Below, one piece after another: positions 6,795 through 24,382 of a DNA stretch of 64,000 nt. The stretch's first letter is position 1; each line of letters opens with the position of its first letter. Made by a program: the position numbers and the translations under genes. The stretch comes from Olleya sediminilitoris (lineage in GTDB: Bacteria; Bacteroidota; Bacteroidia; Flavobacteriales; Flavobacteriaceae), in NCBI RefSeq assembly GCF_016785945.1, contig NZ_JAEMEF010000005.1, positions 1-64,000 of the forward strand. Direction: 5' to 3'. The notes below the pieces were generated by a model that did not search any database, was not told where the DNA came from, and was given only the letters and a program-made list of their open reading frames with translations.

Positions 6795-8102
6795 CTAACC
6801 TCCAGATGCTAATTGCATTAAAATAGTACAACCAATGGCTGCTAATGTTCCTACTGCATAACCAAAAACTGCTAATAAAACACCTACAGTTGCTAAAGAA
6901 GGATGAAAAGCTGATGCTACAATTGGTGCAGATGCTGCACCACCAACATTAGCTTGACTACCTACAGCTAAAAAGAAATAAGGAGCCTTAATTAATTTGG
7001 CTACACCTATTAATAATAATGCGTGAATAGTCATCCAAACTAATCCTATAGCTATTAAACCTACGTTATCAAAAATAGAGGTAATGTCTATTTTCATTCC
7101 TATTGTTGCAACTAATATGTAAATAAAAACACTTCCAAATTTACTTGCTCCTGCACCTTCAAAGTTTTTAGCTTTAGTAAAGGATAAAATAATTGCAATA
7201 ATAGTTGCAATGCTTATCATCCAGAAAAAAGTACTATCTAAAAAGGTAAATGTATTTTTTAATGTTTGAGACTGTATGCCTGAAACAATTTTGCCAAAGA
7301 AAGGCGCTAAGTTATCTGCACAGTAGTGTGCAATACTTACAGATCCAAAAGCAATAGCTGCAAGTAACATTAAATCTGTTACTGTTGGATTACGTTTGAT
7401 ACTTTCGGTATAAGATGACACTTTTTCCTTTAAAGCTTCAATAGACGATGTGTCAGCTTTTAACCATTTATTGATTTTAGCTCTTTTTCCTATTCCTATT
7501 AATAAAATAGCCATCCAAACATTAGCAACTACAATATCTACAAAAACCATTTTACCATATTCAGCTTGATTATATCCGTAAATTTCTAGCATTGCAGTTT
7601 GATTAGCTCCTCCACCAATCCAACTTCCTGCCAATGTAGATAGACCTCTCCATACAGCATCTGGCCCAATACCTCCAACTGTTTCTGGTGATATTGCAGA
7701 GATTAATAATATTGCAATTGGACCACCAATTACAATACCTAAAGTACCAGTAAAAAACATAATTAAAGCTTTCCATCCTAAGTTAAAAACCGCCTTAAGA
7801 TCTATACTTAAGGTCATTAGTACTAAAGCAGCTGGTAATAAGTAACGACTGGCTACATAATACAAATTGGTTTTATGTTTTATAACGTCTCCAGTATTTG
7901 ATGTGGTTTCCCATTCTGGAGCAATTAATCCAATAGTTGTTAGTATGGCTGGAAGCATGTAAGCCATAAATAATCCAGGGACAATTTTGTAAAACTTTTC
8001 CCAGAAACCTCCTTTTAAAGATTCTGTATAAAATATAAAGCCTAATGCAAGCATTAGTACTCCAAAAACGACAGTGTCGTTAGTAAATAGTGGTTCAGTC
8101 AT
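6795..8102 (-). CDS. DUF819 family multi-pass membrane protein
   Basis: A 435-residue protein with about ten to twelve hydrophobic segments. It has the conserved DUF819 block around residues 155-190 (GLSTLAGSWIGGGANQTAM) and a second inverted-repeat-like block near the C terminus (AVGSQANVGGAASAPIVA). The family is related to sodium-coupled permeases; its substrate is not known to me. The gene is followed by the DUF4369 lipoprotein. Its 5' side faces the sigma-54 RNA array, which is transcribed away from it. Confidence 0.85.
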   Translation of the reverse strand: MTEPLFTNDTVVFGVLMLALGFIFYTESLKGGFWEKFYKIVPGLFMAYMLPAILTTIGLIAPEWETTSNTGDVIKHKTNLYYVASRYLLPAALVLMTLSIDLKAVFNLGWKALIMFFTGTLGIVIGGPIAILLISAISPETVGGIGPDAVWRGLSTLAGSWIGGGANQTAMLEIYGYNQAEYGKMVFVDIVVANVWMAILLIGIGKRAKINKWLKADTSSIEALKEKVSSYTESIKRNPTVTDLMLLAAIAFGSVSIAHYCADNLAPFFGKIVSGIQSQTLKNTFTFLDSTFFWMISIATIIAIILSFTKAKNFEGAGASKFGSVFIYILVATIGMKIDITSIFDNVGLIAIGLVWMTIHALLLIGVAKLIKAPYFFLAVGSQANVGGAASAPIVASAFHPSLATVGVLLAVFGYAVGTLAAIGCTILMQLASGG

Positions 8103-8169
8103 AATGTTAGTTTATAGTCAACGCAAAATAATCAAATAAAATGGTTATTAAAAGGTTTAAAATTAAAGT

Positions 8170-8186
8170 TTGGCACAGGATTTGTT
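8170..8186 (+). promoter_or_regulatory. Sigma-54 promoter of RNA copy 1
   Basis: TTGGCACA-GGAT-TTGTT against the consensus TTGGCACG-N4-TTGCW. GG (8172-8173) and the G of the -12 element (8184) are exactly 12 bp apart, as required. Confidence 0.75.
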
Positions 8187-8197
8187 TAGTATGAAAT

Positions 8198-8310
8198 GTA
8201 ATTATTTATGATGACTTTTTAACACTAGGTGTGGTTACCTAAACAAGAACGAGTAAACAATTACATTTGGTTGGTTAGTATGAAAAAGCATCATTTAAAT
8301 GATGCTTTTT
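8198..8310 (+). ncRNA. Tandem sigma-54 small RNA, copy 1
   Basis: Predicted start 26 bp after the -24 GG, the same distance as in copies 2 and 3. Structure: GTAATT (8198-8203) pairs with AATTAC (8259-8264), enclosing the hairpin AGGT (8227-8230)/ACCT (8237-8240). A single-stranded GGTTGGTTAGTATG follows, then terminator stem GCATCATTT/AAATGATGC (8288-8305) with T-run to 8310. No reading frame is conserved across the three copies. I do not recognise the family. Confidence 0.75.
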
Positions 8311-8364
8311 CTGTTTTACAATATTAATAAATCTTTAACAAGACAAGGTGTTAGTAAATTATAA

Positions 8365-8381
8365 TTGGCACGACAATTGTA
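8365..8381 (+). promoter_or_regulatory. Sigma-54 promoter of RNA copy 2
   Basis: TTGGCACG-ACAA-TTGTA differs from TTGGCACG-N4-TTGCW at one position (T for C). GG at 8367 and -12 G at 8379 are spaced 12 bp. Confidence 0.85.
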
Positions 8382-8392
8382 CTATTAAGTTT

Positions 8393-8504
8393 GTAGTTAT
8401 TTATGATGACTTTCTTACACAGGTGTGGTTACCTAAATAGAAACGAGTAATAATTACATTTGGTTGGTTAGTATGAAAAAGCATCATTTTTAATGATGCT
8501 TTTT
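8393..8504 (+). ncRNA. Tandem sigma-54 small RNA, copy 2
   Basis: GTAGTTATT (8393-8401) pairs over nine positions with AATAATTAC (8449-8457), including one G-U pair. It encloses the hairpin AGGT (8421-8424)/ACCT (8431-8434). Then comes the invariant GGTTGGTTAGTATG and terminator stem GCATCATT/AATGATGC with T-run ending at 8504. The start falls 26 bp after the -24 GG. Confidence 0.8.
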
Positions 8505-8558
8505 CTGTTTTATTACATTAGTAAATATTTAACAATCAAAAGAGTTAGTTTATAATAA

Positions 8559-8575
8559 TTGGCACGACAATTGTG
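8559..8575 (+). promoter_or_regulatory. Sigma-54 promoter of RNA copy 3
   Basis: TTGGCACG-ACAA-TTGTG, GG at 8561, -12 G at 8573: correct 12-bp spacing and the same core as copy 2. Confidence 0.85.
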
Positions 8576-8586
8576 ATATAGTTAAT

Positions 8587-8704
8587 GTAATTATTTACTA
8601 AGACTTTCAAAATAGGTGTGGTTACCTATAATAGAAACGAGTAATAATTATCATATTTTTGGTTGGTTAGTATGAAAAAGCATCCTTGTTTAAGGATGCT
8701 TTTT
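8587..8704 (+). ncRNA. Tandem sigma-54 small RNA, copy 3
   Basis: GTAATTATT (8587-8595) pairs with AATAATTAT (8643-8651), ending in a G-U pair. It encloses AGGT (8614-8617)/ACCT (8624-8627). The invariant GGTTGGTTAGTATG follows. The terminator stem is GCATCCTT/AAGGATGC; compared with copies 1 and 2 both arms changed, keeping the pairing. T-run ends at 8704, 25 bp before the stop of the convergent hydrolase gene. Confidence 0.8.
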
Positions 8705-8729
8705 CTATTTTAAATATATTGTTATGTCT

Positions 8730-9656
8730 TTATTCTTTTATAAAAGTAATAATAGCATCAATTAAGCCATTTGCTAATGGACGATGAGATTCATTATACG
8801 ATTTTGAATTTTCTAAATCACCACCTTCAATGGTTACCAATACATGGTTCATGTTTTCAATAATCTTTAATTGGGCTTTGTTGCTTGCGTTTTTAAGACT
8901 TTCAGCTTCAGATTTACTAACTTGTAAGTCTTTACTACCATGAAGTATTAATGACGGAATGTTTAAAGTGCTTAGTATTGAAGTAGGATTGTACTGCATC
9001 CAATTCATTATAAAGCGTTGGGTTTCGATATTAAAAATAGAAGATAAAGCTACAGGATAATCAGTTGTTGTTTTTCCTGTTTTCAAAATTTCAAAAATAC
9101 GTTGTGTATCCTGACTAAACTGAGGCGCAGTTTTGGCAACTTCTTCTGTTATAACGCTATCAATACTTTTTCCAGAACCTGCTAAAGATATAAATCCATT
9201 GGCTTTATCTTTTGAGGCTAACATACCAATTAAGCTACCTTGATCATGACCAATCACATATATTTTATTAAACGTGTTTGTTTTAATAAAGTAATCTATA
9301 ACCGAAGTGGCATCTGTTACAAAATCATCAAAAATAATAGTATTATCAACACTTCTTTCTCGTATTTGCTTAACTATACGTTTGTCATACCTGAATGTTG
9401 CAATCTGATTATTACTTAAACTAATGGCTAGTTTTTTTAGATTATTAGTTTTTAAAAAATTTTGATTCCCATCTTTATCTGTCGGTCCTGATCCACCAAT
9501 AATTATAGCTAAGTTTGGTTTTTGTATTGTTTTAGGAGTTAAAAGTGTACCATTAATGTAATTATTGATTGCAATATCTTTACTTATATATTGTGTGTCT
9601 TGTGCCAGAATTATTGTGGAGGTCAATGCAAAAAATAGTAATAGGTAAGATTTCAT
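8730..9656 (-). CDS. Secreted alpha/beta hydrolase with Asp at the nucleophile site
   Basis: I place the start at 9656, where MKSYLLLFFALTSTIILAQ gives a clean signal peptide; a frame reaching back to 9740 only adds a Lys/Tyr-rich stretch. The mature part has the IGGSGPTDKDGN opening seen in COG1073-type hydrolases, an elbow VIGHDQGSLIG, an acid loop (GSKD) and a late catalytic His (NMNHVLV). The elbow normally reads GHSxGS. Here the codon is GAT, so an Asp replaces Ser, as in dehalogenase/epoxide-hydrolase-like enzymes or in an inactive esterase. Length is 308 residues. Substrate unknown. Confidence 0.82.
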   Translation of the reverse strand: MKSYLLLFFALTSTIILAQDTQYISKDIAINNYINGTLLTPKTIQKPNLAIIIGGSGPTDKDGNQNFLKTNNLKKLAISLSNNQIATFRYDKRIVKQIRERSVDNTIIFDDFVTDATSVIDYFIKTNTFNKIYVIGHDQGSLIGMLASKDKANGFISLAGSGKSIDSVITEEVAKTAPQFSQDTQRIFEILKTGKTTTDYPVALSSIFNIETQRFIMNWMQYNPTSILSTLNIPSLILHGSKDLQVSKSEAESLKNASNKAQLKIIENMNHVLVTIEGGDLENSKSYNESHRPLANGLIDAIITFIKE

Positions 9657-18920: not shown

Positions 18921-19805
18921 ATGAGATTATATTTAGGGACTATTTTATTAACGTTAATGCTACTTGGTAGTGTAAATGTTGCCAATGCTCAACTAACAGA
19001 TTTAGCTAGATTAGAGTATTCCTATGTGCCTAAAAGTAATTCTGAAGATAGTTTTGACAGAGTTAGAGCTCTTTTAAATTACCCAATTAAAACCAGTGAA
19101 GACTGTTATTTAATTGTTGGTGCTGAGTATAGTCGATTAACCTTAGATTTAGAAGACAGTTATCCTTTTCCGACCTCTAATTTAAGACGTTTGCATATCT
19201 TAGATTTTAATGTTGGTTATACTTTTAAGTTAAATAAAAATTGGAGATTAGGAGCTAAAGTTACACCTAGAATTGCATCTACTTTAAGACATAAAATAAC
19301 TGGAGATGATATATTTTTAAATGGAGGAATTTATGCCATTAACGATAAAACTAAAGACGCCAACATTAAAAAGCCTTACAGATTAATTTTGGGATTAACC
19401 TACAATAGTACAACTGGTATACCATTACCATTACCTTTTGTTAGTTATTTTAGACGTGTCAACGAGAGTTGGTCTTATAACTTAGGAGTGCCAAAAACTA
19501 ATATCAAGTATTTTTTTAACGAAAAAAACATCGTACAAACCTTTGTTGGTATTGATGGTTATTTTGCTAATACACAAGAGGTTTTTACTATAGATGGTAA
19601 ACAAGCAGACAGTATTTCTTTATCAGTAATATTAGCAGGTTTAGGTTATGAATATAATTTTACAGATAATTTGGTATGGTATTCGTATGTTGGTCATACA
19701 ATTAGTATGAGTAATAGATTAAGAGATGAAAATAGAGAAGATGTTTTTAAGTTAGATAACGTAAATGCATTTTATTTAAGAACAGGAATAAAATTTAAAA
19801 TATAA
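18921..19805 (+). CDS. Outer-membrane beta-barrel protein (DUF6268-like)
   Basis: A 294-residue protein with a signal peptide (about 1-23, ending VANAQ) and many alternating aromatic/hydrophobic strands (VGAEYSRLTLDL, FNVGYTFKLNKNWRLGAKV, LGYEYNFTDNLVWYSYVGHT), ending in a C-terminal FKI strand. This fits a single-domain outer-membrane barrel, which I believe belongs to DUF6268. Function unknown. Its stop overlaps the start of the sigma-54 activator by one base (TAATG), so the two are translationally coupled. Confidence 0.75.
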   Translation: MRLYLGTILLTLMLLGSVNVANAQLTDLARLEYSYVPKSNSEDSFDRVRALLNYPIKTSEDCYLIVGAEYSRLTLDLEDSYPFPTSNLRRLHILDFNVGYTFKLNKNWRLGAKVTPRIASTLRHKITGDDIFLNGGIYAINDKTKDANIKKPYRLILGLTYNSTTGIPLPLPFVSYFRRVNESWSYNLGVPKTNIKYFFNEKNIVQTFVGIDGYFANTQEVFTIDGKQADSISLSVILAGLGYEYNFTDNLVWYSYVGHTISMSNRLRDENREDVFKLDNVNAFYLRTGIKFKI

Positions 19806-20968
19806 TGCCAAAAATATTAGTAATAGAGGACGAAGCAGCCATAAGAAGGGTTTTAGTAAAAATTCTTTCTGAAGAAAATGATACCTATCAAGTTGAAGAA
19901 GCTGAAGATGGATTAGTTGGTATTGGAAAAATTAAAAAAGAAGATTACGACCTTATACTTTGCGATATTAAAATGCCTAAAATGGATGGCGTTGAGGTAT
20001 TAGAAGCAACTAAAAAAATTAAGCCAGAAATACCAATGGTTATGATTTCTGGTCATGGAGATTTAGATACAGCAGTAAATACAATGCGTTTAGGTGCGTT
20101 TGATTATATTTCAAAACCACCAGATTTAAATCGTTTATTAAACACTGTACGTAATGCTTTAGATAGAAAAGAATTAGTAGTAGAAAACAAAATTCTTAAA
20201 AAGAAGGTCAGTAAAAAATACGAAATGATTGGAGATAGCGATGCTATTTCTCAAATCAAAGACATGATTGATAAAGTAGCACCAACAGATGCTAGAGTAT
20301 TAATTACTGGACCAAACGGAACAGGTAAAGAGTTAGTCGCACATTGGTTACACGAAAAAAGTACACGTGCAAAAGCACCAATGATAGAGGTGAATTGTGC
20401 TGCAATACCAAGTGAGTTAATTGAAAGTGAATTATTTGGTCATGTTAAAGGAGCCTTTACAAGTGCAGCAAAAGACAGAGCAGGTAAATTTGAAGCAGCT
20501 AATGGAGGAACCATTTTTTTAGATGAAATTGGAGACATGAGTTTATCAGCACAAGCTAAAGTTTTACGTGCTTTACAAGAAAGTCGCATACAACGTGTTG
20601 GTAGTGATAAAGACATAAAAGTTAATGTACGTGTGGTTGCTGCCACTAATAAAAATCTTAAAAAAGAAATTACAGATGGTAATTTCCGTGAGGATTTATA
20701 TCACAGACTAGCGGTAATATTAGTTAAAGTTCCGGCTTTAAATGATAGACGAGAAGACATTCCGTTGTTAATTAATCATTTCTCTAAAAAAATAGCCGAG
20801 GAGCAAGGGACTGCACACAAATCATTTTCGGCTAAAGCCATAAAATTATTACAAGATTACGATTGGACAGGTAATATTAGAGAGCTGCGTAATGTTATTG
20901 AAAGACTAATTATTTTAGGAGGACCAGAAGTTAGCGAAAAAGATGTAAAACTATTTGCTAGCAAATAG
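19805..20968 (+). CDS. Sigma-54 activator: REC + AAA+ without DNA-binding domain
   Basis: A 387-residue NtrC-type protein. The receiver domain (1-120) has D9, phospho-acceptor D54 and K104. The AAA+ domain (about 140-375) has Walker A GPNGTGKE (169-176), Walker B FLDE (238-241) and arginine fingers in FREDLYHRL. The sigma-54-contacting loop reads GAFTSA (216-221) where almost all activators have GAFTGA. The protein ends 20-odd residues after the AAA+ domain (NIRELRNVIERLIILGG), with no Fis-type helix-turn-helix, so it would act without its own DNA site, as Helicobacter FlgR does. No partner histidine kinase lies beside it. It could serve the sigma-54 RNA promoters at 8170-8575 (inference). 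Confidence 0.9.
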   Translation: MPKILVIEDEAAIRRVLVKILSEENDTYQVEEAEDGLVGIGKIKKEDYDLILCDIKMPKMDGVEVLEATKKIKPEIPMVMISGHGDLDTAVNTMRLGAFDYISKPPDLNRLLNTVRNALDRKELVVENKILKKKVSKKYEMIGDSDAISQIKDMIDKVAPTDARVLITGPNGTGKELVAHWLHEKSTRAKAPMIEVNCAAIPSELIESELFGHVKGAFTSAAKDRAGKFEAANGGTIFLDEIGDMSLSAQAKVLRALQESRIQRVGSDKDIKVNVRVVAATNKNLKKEITDGNFREDLYHRLAVILVKVPALNDRREDIPLLINHFSKKIAEEQGTAHKSFSAKAIKLLQDYDWTGNIRELRNVIERLIILGGPEVSEKDVKLFASK

Positions 20969-22889: not shown

Positions 22890-22977
22890 GGCGTTACCAC
22901 AAGGGTCGCGCTTTCCATTATATCTTTTTTTGCCATATATGGCAGCAAAAAAAGGATGCCATTTCAATCGCTAACGC
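22890..22977. repeat. Extragenic palindromic element (GCGTTA...TAACGC)
   Basis: An 88-bp element filling the gap between two genes. It is bounded by GCGTTA and TAACGC. Inside, the palindrome GCCATATATGGC is flanked by T7 and A7 arms (CTTTTTTTGC/GCAAAAAAAG), giving a long imperfect hairpin. It has a much higher GC content at its ends than other intergenic DNA here (AAGGGTCGCGC). I recall closely similar elements scattered between genes in other Flavobacteriaceae; copy number in this genome is unknown. Confidence 0.6.
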
Positions 22978-22984
22978 AACTATC

Positions 22985-24382
22985 ATGAAACAACTAGCAA
23001 TTATTCTAACACTATTACTATCAATAAACGCAACAGCACAAACAGATCAAGAAGTCGTAAAAACCATTTATAGTCAATCCTTAACCAATGGTAAAGCCTA
23101 CCAATGGTTAGATCATTTATCAAACCAAATAGGAGGACGTTTATCTGGATCTACAAATGCAGAAAAAGCTGTACAATACACAAAACAAGAACTAGAAAAA
23201 TTAGGATTAGACAAAGTTTGGTTGCAAGAGGTAATGGTTCCAAAATGGGAACGTGGTGCCAAAGAAGTCGCGCATTTTACAACCCAAAATAATACTTTTA
23301 ATGTTAATATTTGTGCACTAGGTGGCTCTGTGGCAACATCAAAAAAAGGGTTAGAAGCAACAGTAATAGAAGTCAAAAGCTTTGAAGAGTTAGCAACACT
23401 AGGTACTAAAGTAAAAGGTAAAATAGTATTTTTTAATGGAGCCATGAATCCAGAATTAATACATACCTTTGAAGCTTATGGTGGATGCTCTAAACAACGT
23501 TATGCTGGAGCTTACGAAGCAGGTAAACTTGGAGCTGTTGGCGTAATAGTACGTTCTCTTAATTTAAGGCAAGACGATTTACCACACACAGGAAGTATGG
23601 GTTACATGGATTTGCCAAATAACCAACGTGTGCCATCTGCAGCAATAAGTACAAATGATGCTAATAAATTATCTGAAGCCTTAAAAAAGGATGTTAATCT
23701 AAAATTCTATTTTAAACAAAGCTGTCAACAATTTGAAGATGTACTGTCATACAATGTAATTGGAGAAATTACAGGAAGTCAATTTCCTGATGAATATATG
23801 GTTGTTGGTGGACATTTAGATTCATGGGATTTAGGAGATGGATCTCATGACGATGGAGCAGGAGTAGTGCAATCTATGGATGTTATAAGATTATTAAAAG
23901 AAAGTGGTATTAAGCCAAAACGCACTATAAGAGTGGTTCTGTTTATGAATGAAGAAAACGGTTTGCGTGGTGGAAAAAAATATGCAGAAGAGGCTAAACG
24001 TAAAAACGAGAATCATGTCTTTGCGCTTGAAAGTGATTCAGGAGGATTTTCACCTCGTGGTTTTAGTTTTGATTGTAGTGAGGCAGCATTAAATAAAGTA
24101 CTAAGTTGGCAGTCTTTATTTAAACCGTATTTAATTCATTATTTTGAAAAAGGGTATAGTGGTGCAGATATAGGACCACTAAAAAACGACCATATCGTTA
24201 TGGCTGGTTTAAGACCAGATTCTCAACGTTATTTTGATCATCATCATGCTGCAAACGATACCTTTGATGCAGTCAATAAACGCGAGCTAGAATTGGGTGC
24301 AGCAACAATGACAAGTTTAGTGTATTTATTTGATAAATACGGAACAAGTAATATACCACAGGTTAAAGAATTTAAGGACTAG
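22985..24382 (+). CDS. M28 family zinc aminopeptidase/carboxypeptidase, exported
   Basis: A 465-residue protein with a signal peptide (about 1-19, ending ATAQ), a protease-associated-like insert (about 110-220, VKGKIVFFNG) and the M28 catalytic domain. Zinc ligands and catalytic residues are visible: GGHLDSWD (His, Asp), HDDGAGV (bridging Asp), MNEENGLRGG (catalytic Glu pair), ESDSGG (Asp) and the final HHHAANDTFD (His). It resembles plasma glutamate carboxypeptidase (carboxypeptidase Q). It probably digests peptides in the periplasm or outside. Confidence 0.9.
   Translation: MKQLAIILTLLLSINATAQTDQEVVKTIYSQSLTNGKAYQWLDHLSNQIGGRLSGSTNAEKAVQYTKQELEKLGLDKVWLQEVMVPKWERGAKEVAHFTTQNNTFNVNICALGGSVATSKKGLEATVIEVKSFEELATLGTKVKGKIVFFNGAMNPELIHTFEAYGGCSKQRYAGAYEAGKLGAVGVIVRSLNLRQDDLPHTGSMGYMDLPNNQRVPSAAISTNDANKLSEALKKDVNLKFYFKQSCQQFEDVLSYNVIGEITGSQFPDEYMVVGGHLDSWDLGDGSHDDGAGVVQSMDVIRLLKESGIKPKRTIRVVLFMNEENGLRGGKKYAEEAKRKNENHVFALESDSGGFSPRGFSFDCSEAALNKVLSWQSLFKPYLIHYFEKGYSGADIGPLKNDHIVMAGLRPDSQRYFDHHHAANDTFDAVNKRELELGAATMTSLVYLFDKYGTSNIPQVKEFKD

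Follow-up and report, generated by a model that had tools for sequence, protein, structure and literature searches.

Three tandem units lie 195 and 194 bp apart at positions 8103-8729 of the window, the whole 64,000-nt stretch of DNA analysed here, and they raise the question of what they encode and what their most conserved part acts upon. A reading of the letters alone (the sequence-only reading) had described them as three structured small RNAs at a spacing of 194-195 bp, each with its own sigma-54 promoter and terminator, and had proposed a Qrr-like regulatory logic. Our measurements bore out the spacing. Each unit also carries exact -24/-12 elements, as that reading had claimed, with TTGGCAC starting at 8170, 8365 and 8559 and identical spacing throughout, and GGTTGGTTAG recurs at 8269, 8462 and 8661. 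An ORF search of 8103-8729 found none of 60 aa or longer. Judged by their promoter sequences, the units represent a family of sigma-54-type small RNAs of Flavobacteriaceae (Table 1). The predicted RNA layout comprises a sigma-54-type promoter, a variable 5' stem-loop, an invariant G/U tag UUGGUUGGUUAGU and a terminator.

Table 1. Predicted features of the three units and a candidate activator gene in the window
Feature	Position	Strand	Details	Basis
Sigma-54 promoter, copy 1	8170-8185	+	TTGGCACAGGATTTGT	sequence
Predicted small RNA, copy 1	8196-8315	+	start ~8198	fold z -3.5; BLAST homologues in the same genus
5' domain, copy 1	8196-8266	+	closing stem 8196-8203/8259-8266; hairpin 8226-8241	fold
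Conserved tag, copy 1	8266-8282	+	TTTGGTTGGTTAGTATG	conservation
Intrinsic terminator, copy 1	8282-8315	+	stem 8282-8294/8299-8311	fold; covariation in one family alignment
Sigma-54 promoter, copy 2	8365-8380	+	TTGGCACGACAATTGT	sequence
Predicted small RNA, copy 2	8391-8509	+	start ~8393; tag 8459-8475; terminator 8475-8505	fold z -4.1
Sigma-54 promoter, copy 3	8559-8574	+	TTGGCACGACAATTGT	sequence
Predicted small RNA, copy 3	8585-8709	+	start ~8587; tag 8658-8674; terminator 8674-8705	fold z -4.5
Strong sigma-54 activator (1 of 3 in the genome)	19805-20968	+	response regulator + AAA+	Pfam

Fold, anatomy and distribution of the RNA family

The closing stem, the AGGU/ACCU hairpin and the terminator described from the letters all appear in the folds of the three predicted RNAs. 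None of 200 shuffles folded as well as the whole unit for any of the three, and the 5' part without the terminator gave z-scores of -1.4, -1.8 and -2.0, equalled by 19, 10 and 10 of 200 shuffles. Because the 5' part alone scores weaker, much of the whole-unit z-score comes from the terminator. In 151 of 166 family sequences, the two arms of the closing stem (5' and 3') form better pairs with each other than with arms taken from other genomes, and this stem is absent from the consensus of both family alignments (36 and 34 sequences). The pairs of the terminator and the hairpin covary in the first alignment, where two-sided changes occur in 12 of 16 pairs, the hairpin included; the second has two-sided changes in 8 of 13 pairs and a consensus consisting of the terminator only. 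Together, the alignments hold 70 of 84 selected sequences, with 14 left out. Direct repeats would also fit a repeated DNA element that is not an RNA, such as a protein binding site or a transposon end, which we find hardly credible given the promoter, the closing stem matched within each genome and the compensatory terminator changes, all on one strand.

The promoter-to-tag length ranges from 34 to 85 nt in 181 sequences among the matches listed; a GUGGUUAC or GAGUGGUUAC hairpin is frequent in the longer forms among these matches and missing from the shortest. GGUUGGUUAG has a mean unpaired probability of 0.58, against 0.39 for the part upstream, and exceeds 0.7 in 58 of the 181 sequences. The possibility that the RNA encloses a conserved small ORF was rejected, the closed ATG ORFs having 1-24 codons and not being shared. 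The search for an upstream activator site gave no clear motif; the enriched words came from neighbouring copies and gene starts.

A BLAST search with copy 2 recovered two to four copies in each of nine other genomes drawn from the same genus. The 14-nt tag GGTTGGTTAGTATG, which the sequence-only reading had singled out as the invariant core, is identical in 26 of 26 genus copies, a set that is less circular, with related species and a query that does contain the tag and the promoter. TGGCAYN5TTG is exact in 25 of the 26, the exception being one copy in G006; a 27th row, a DUF819 coding stretch, was dropped. The second copy of G006 (L013, ~1500-1650) keeps the tag and has a degenerate promoter (TTGGTACGACTATTAT), possibly as a decaying copy. 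With up to one mismatch, GGTTGGTTAGTATG occurs at three sites in the 3.4 Mb genome of origin, which are the three units only.

Across the family, the promoter followed by a 26-86 nt gap and TTGGTTGGTTAGT was found in 107 of 299 genomes (mirrored pattern: 0 of 299), corresponding to 99 of 249 good genomes and 86 of 236 genera. There is one exact match in 95 of these 107 genomes, which we call carriers, and two to four in the other 12. Tag-bearing genomes without an exact pattern match exist as well, since G028 and G158 show the tag. Tag and promoter served to select the 182 family sequences, which makes both sets of columns invariant by construction. One of them (L090, from a MAG labelled Chitinophaga, with a 29-nt gap and no terminator in its stretch) was dropped, leaving 181. 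A named collection holds at least 115 pattern-matching stretches, 80 by name among the matches listed. The genera among those matches include Winogradskyella, Psychroserpens, Gelidibacter, Algibacter, Bizionia, Lacinutrix, Formosa, Kordia, Aequorivita, Nonlabens and Mesonia, together with one MAG labelled Flavobacterium. Matches in 39 genomes from other families of the order were confined to four (G061, G079, G087, G095) and to the terminator part. In other genera (L022, L034, L057, L088 and others), the RNA lies not by DUF819/hydrolase genes but beside a gene starting MKEEKIIVPANGYLML, which we take to be SPFH-like, and in some it follows an apparent uvrA 3' end.

The sequence-only reading knew of no described family with these features, and an Rfam 15 covariance-model search (cmscan) agrees with it: the window units gave no match at gathering score, and the 21 matches at E<=10 within 8100-8740 all lie under the cut-offs of their own families. 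A description of the family was also not found in the open-access literature searched.

Search of gene starts, and the tag at mRNA 3' ends

A search of gene starts for the complement, as suggested by the sequence-only reading, found no conserved site there. In 840 5'UTRs belonging to genes in the neighbourhood of the RNA, complement 8-mers showed no enrichment (27, against 23 mirrored), and composition-shuffled 8-mers were commoner still in the same 5'UTRs, at 39 on average. A PorP/SprF-like gene with the sole 5'UTR match in the genome of origin was rejected as a target; its site was not seen upstream of 17 orthologues, a comparison in which the upstream stretch of L380 was shortened by a wrong start. 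The DUF819 neighbour was likewise rejected, with 4 of 49 falling within the top 5% of the background.

Vibrio Qrr small RNAs have sigma-54 promoters, occur in several copies and work in a LuxO/LuxR setting, with activation by LuxO and repression of a LuxR-type master regulator. The window RNAs resemble them in promoter and copy number, their -24/-12 elements being exact by sequence only, and differ from them in lacking an Rfam Qrr match, in belonging to a family that usually has one exact match per genome and in showing no start-site target. Additive Qrr-like RNAs pairing at the start codon of a master regulator would account for the sigma-54 promoters and the tandem copies; the single exact match in 95 of 107 family genomes, together with the missing target and Rfam match, makes such a role very improbable. 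What stands of the earlier interpretation are the sigma-54-type small RNAs with a conserved core, and the Qrr-like logic is left loosely supported.

A property of the tag that the sequence-only reading missed, and that is new here, is that the small RNAs share it with the predicted 3'UTR of clpB and with those of secreted-protein genes of one class. In 80 chosen carriers, tag-complement 11-mers occur at 617 sites against 334 mirrored (Wilcoxon 2e-7), and 514 sites are left for the same carrier count after removal of the small-RNA copies as counted by us. The corresponding numbers for 80 genomes without an exact match are 335 and 316 (p 0.5). We read 135 sites among the matches listed, which are no random sample because they were taken from the first-listed genomes and the first hits of others; many are orthologous. 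Among the matches listed, the tag leads directly into a terminator at 34 of 50 non-coding sites outside the small RNAs, compared with 16 of 50 on the opposite strand and 5 of 83 coding sites.

The clpB 3'UTR carries the tag in at least 10 survey genomes, in the genome of origin and in G028 and G158. The secreted proteins have an N/R-rich C-terminus and no Pfam match, and the tag follows 5-17 nt past their stop codons. An exact sigma-54 promoter stands just upstream of these genes in 12 of 12 testable loci among the matches listed; a thirteenth locus, L309, was left out for too little upstream sequence. Promoter and tag are both present at L197 and L252, though at L252 the terminator rule calls no terminator behind the tag. 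At several other genes with the tag in their 3'UTR no sigma-54 promoter is visible, for instance L230, a DUF4890-like gene whose Pfam score for that domain is just under the cut-off. In 10 of 11 clpB loci (L344-L354), the upstream region has the variant TGGTARG-N4-TTGA, with the spacing unchanged. All 11, read by eye, have a GACA-W3/5-TGTC/GTC-type palindrome (e.g. GACATTTTGTC), possibly an activator site of a sigma-54 stress regulon. At L184 and L188, TGGTTGGTTAG and a terminator occur with no recognised ORF end upstream, perhaps as another tag-bearing RNA.

The genome of origin shows no excess of GGTTGGTTAG (15, against 14 mirrored), and clpB is the only gene there with GGTTGGTTAG in its 3'UTR. 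TTGGCAYN5TTG has 27 sites against 16 mirrored in this genome. By the ORFs read at all of these 27 loci but L397 and L407, it precedes dnaK and htpG, lipoprotein-like genes and one gene that looks like a member of the secreted class. This look-alike has no tag within 110 nt after its stop codon. The window RNAs and the chaperone genes dnaK and htpG thus have a predicted sigma-54 promoter in common. For Flavobacterium psychrophilum, the sigma-54 (SM4) promoter selection in Table 2 of PMC9723704 includes clpB, dnaK, htpG, groES and lon. The genome of origin encodes one sigma-54 (PF04552). Its matches to the sigma-54 activator domain number nine, of which three are strong and six weak. One of the strong ones, at 19805-20968, is a possible activator of the small RNAs. 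Its Pfam matches include no C-terminal DNA-binding domain, and the gene immediately before it may encode an outer-membrane protein.

A predicted complementary small RNA beside fumC

Tag sites of the opposite orientation form a class of their own, which is a second predicted small RNA beside fumC with an exposed stretch complementary to the tag. This complementary RNA, too, had been missed by the sequence-only reading and is new here. Its gene shows a TTAACAWWTGTTAA palindrome (in 9 of 9 aligned), a -7 element resembling TATATATTTG, a hairpin at the 5' end, UAGCUAACCAACCAAAAA and a terminator. In the six loci read, the flank away from fumC is occupied by a regulator gene, cNMP-binding where tested. 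The 15-mer GATAGCTAACCAACC occurs in 17 of 299 genomes (mirrored: 0) in a search with this one exact word, from which variants seen at fumC escaped. A fumC C-terminal motif is nearby in 13 of the 17. Thirteen of the 17 also carry the sigma-54 RNA (Fisher 5e-4, a statistic that ignores phylogeny), and the two examined among the remaining four, G028 and G158, both show the tag downstream of clpB and of a gene of the secreted class.

Reading the fumC locus by eye, we recognised the partner RNA in 17 of 30 chosen genomes and did not see it at fumC in the other 13. Nine genus members have a partner with AACTAAC-type linkers, G116 and G139 have a similar form, and the RNA is also found at fumC in G222, G211, G120, G119, G028 and G158. 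The gene in the genome of origin lies at ~1344-1470 of L447 (contig C12) and has a perfect TTAACATATGTTAA palindrome. For five genomes outside the genus, the predicted linker duplex reaches -21 to -25 kcal/mol, compared with -10 to -16 for the mirrored control, and 0 of 300 shuffles, which preserve composition only, are as good; for seven genus genomes it lies at -8 to -14 kcal/mol, with 0-31 of 300 as good. The genus members together with G116 and G139 span -8 to -15 kcal/mol. Full-length duplexes of the window's own RNAs are unexceptional, with 158, 146 and 19 of 200 shuffles as good. Judging from these predicted duplexes, the fumC-side partner in the window genus is a weaker, wobble version of the complement.

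The explanation we favour, at about an even chance, is a sigma-54 RNA of proteostasis or envelope stress whose tag would pair with other RNAs, the fumC-side RNA included, in mutual titration. Under such stress, sigma-54 would raise the small RNA and the tag-bearing mRNAs together. The tag would work through base pairing, with the fumC-side small RNA as a minimum, and this RNA and the sigma-54 RNA would titrate each other. Against this explanation stand the weaker duplexes in the window's genus, the 13 of 30 genomes in which the partner was not seen at fumC, the lack of an excess of GGTTGGTTAG in the genome of origin, the tag-bearing genes with no visible sigma-54 promoter and the tag's mean unpaired probability of only 0.58. 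The fumC-side RNA is the only supported partner for this putative pairing. As no conserved mRNA site was found, we commit ourselves to base pairing as the tag's mode of action at about one half. A tag common to small RNAs and stress mRNA 3' ends, with a conserved complementary RNA, would form an RNA circuit of simple design, open to testing and linked to the proteostasis regulon of marine Flavobacteriaceae, whose post-transcriptional control is little explored.

The main rival, which we regard as rather unlikely, holds that the tag beside the terminator is the site of an RNA-binding protein, either a chaperone or a factor stabilising 3' ends, and involves no base pairing. The tag does stand directly upstream of terminators in the small RNA and the mRNAs, is strictly conserved, contains a GGUUGGUU repeat and has no conserved mRNA target that we could find. 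Furthermore, RbpB of Bacteroides binds a multicopy small RNA family according to the accessible text of PMC11697453. However, a protein site alone does not explain the complementary linker stretch of the other small RNA, which is exact in 17 genomes. Under either reading, the tag is a defined sequence for fishing partner RNAs or an RNA-binding protein of flavobacteria.

Regulation could also run in the reverse direction, with the fumC-side RNA regulating tags in the 3'UTRs of clpB and other genes and the sigma-54 RNAs serving as stress decoys. The presence of the tag in several mRNAs would agree with this, as would tandem decoy copies and a partner encoded separately, with a terminator of its own and, next to it, a cNMP-binding regulator gene and a conserved palindrome. 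Against it, the sigma-54 RNA was found in 107 of 299 genomes and the exact partner in fewer, 17 of 299, by an exact 15-mer search that misses variants; we judge this direction distinctly unlikely. A broader version of the favoured pairing explanation is put forward tentatively, as a possibility on the unlikely side: a regulon-wide RNA barcode, in which the 3' tag on sigma-54 RNAs and on stress mRNAs (clpB and secreted proteins) would be read by the fumC-side RNA beside the cNMP-binding regulator. If true, stress and metabolic regulators would titrate each other through RNA.

Relation to described small RNAs

RybB and MicA are sigma-E small RNAs of enterobacteria. Such RNAs form the small RNA arm of the envelope stress regulon, as outlined in the accessible text of PMC1804206, and the predicted role of the window family would be alike in this respect. 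The family differs from them in using another sigma factor, in having no porin target that we found and in a 3'-end tag common to mRNAs.

A closer comparison is offered by Rfp36, a putative regulatory RNA of F. psychrophilum whose start is mapped (840245 in strain THC02-90) and whose promoter is of the sigma-54 (SM4) type. It is named once in the accessible text of PMC9723704, in Table 2; this was the one paper found on sigma-54 and small RNAs in marine Flavobacteriaceae. Rfp36 comes from the same bacterial family, is a sigma-54 RNA and is tabled with dnaK, groES, htpG, clpB and lon (PMC9723704). Compared by table entry rather than by sequence, Rfp36 may be a relative of the window RNA family. 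Rfp18 of the same species is a conserved flavobacterial small RNA with predicted pairing through its third stem-loop (PMC9723704, accessible text); compared by description only, it differs in standing outside the sigma-54 promoter selection of Table 2.

FopS and GibS of Bacteroides thetaiotaomicron are, in the accessible text of PMC11697453, bile-salt-induced RNAs of a family deposited in Rfam, multicopy in the case of FopS, with a shared single-stranded seed and one member derived from a 3'UTR. The likeness lies in multicopy Bacteroidota RNAs sharing one seed. In contrast to the sigma-54 promoters of the window RNAs, the FopS RNAs have a housekeeping promoter, along with a 5'-end seed and 14 members (PMC11697453), and the window copies have no Rfam match to FopS/GibS. 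Elsewhere in the window, a Flavo-1 RNA (RF01705) lies at 22900-22985 on the minus strand, with 63.3 bits; by the ORFs read, its neighbours are a PPK2-like gene on one side and a peptidase gene on the other.
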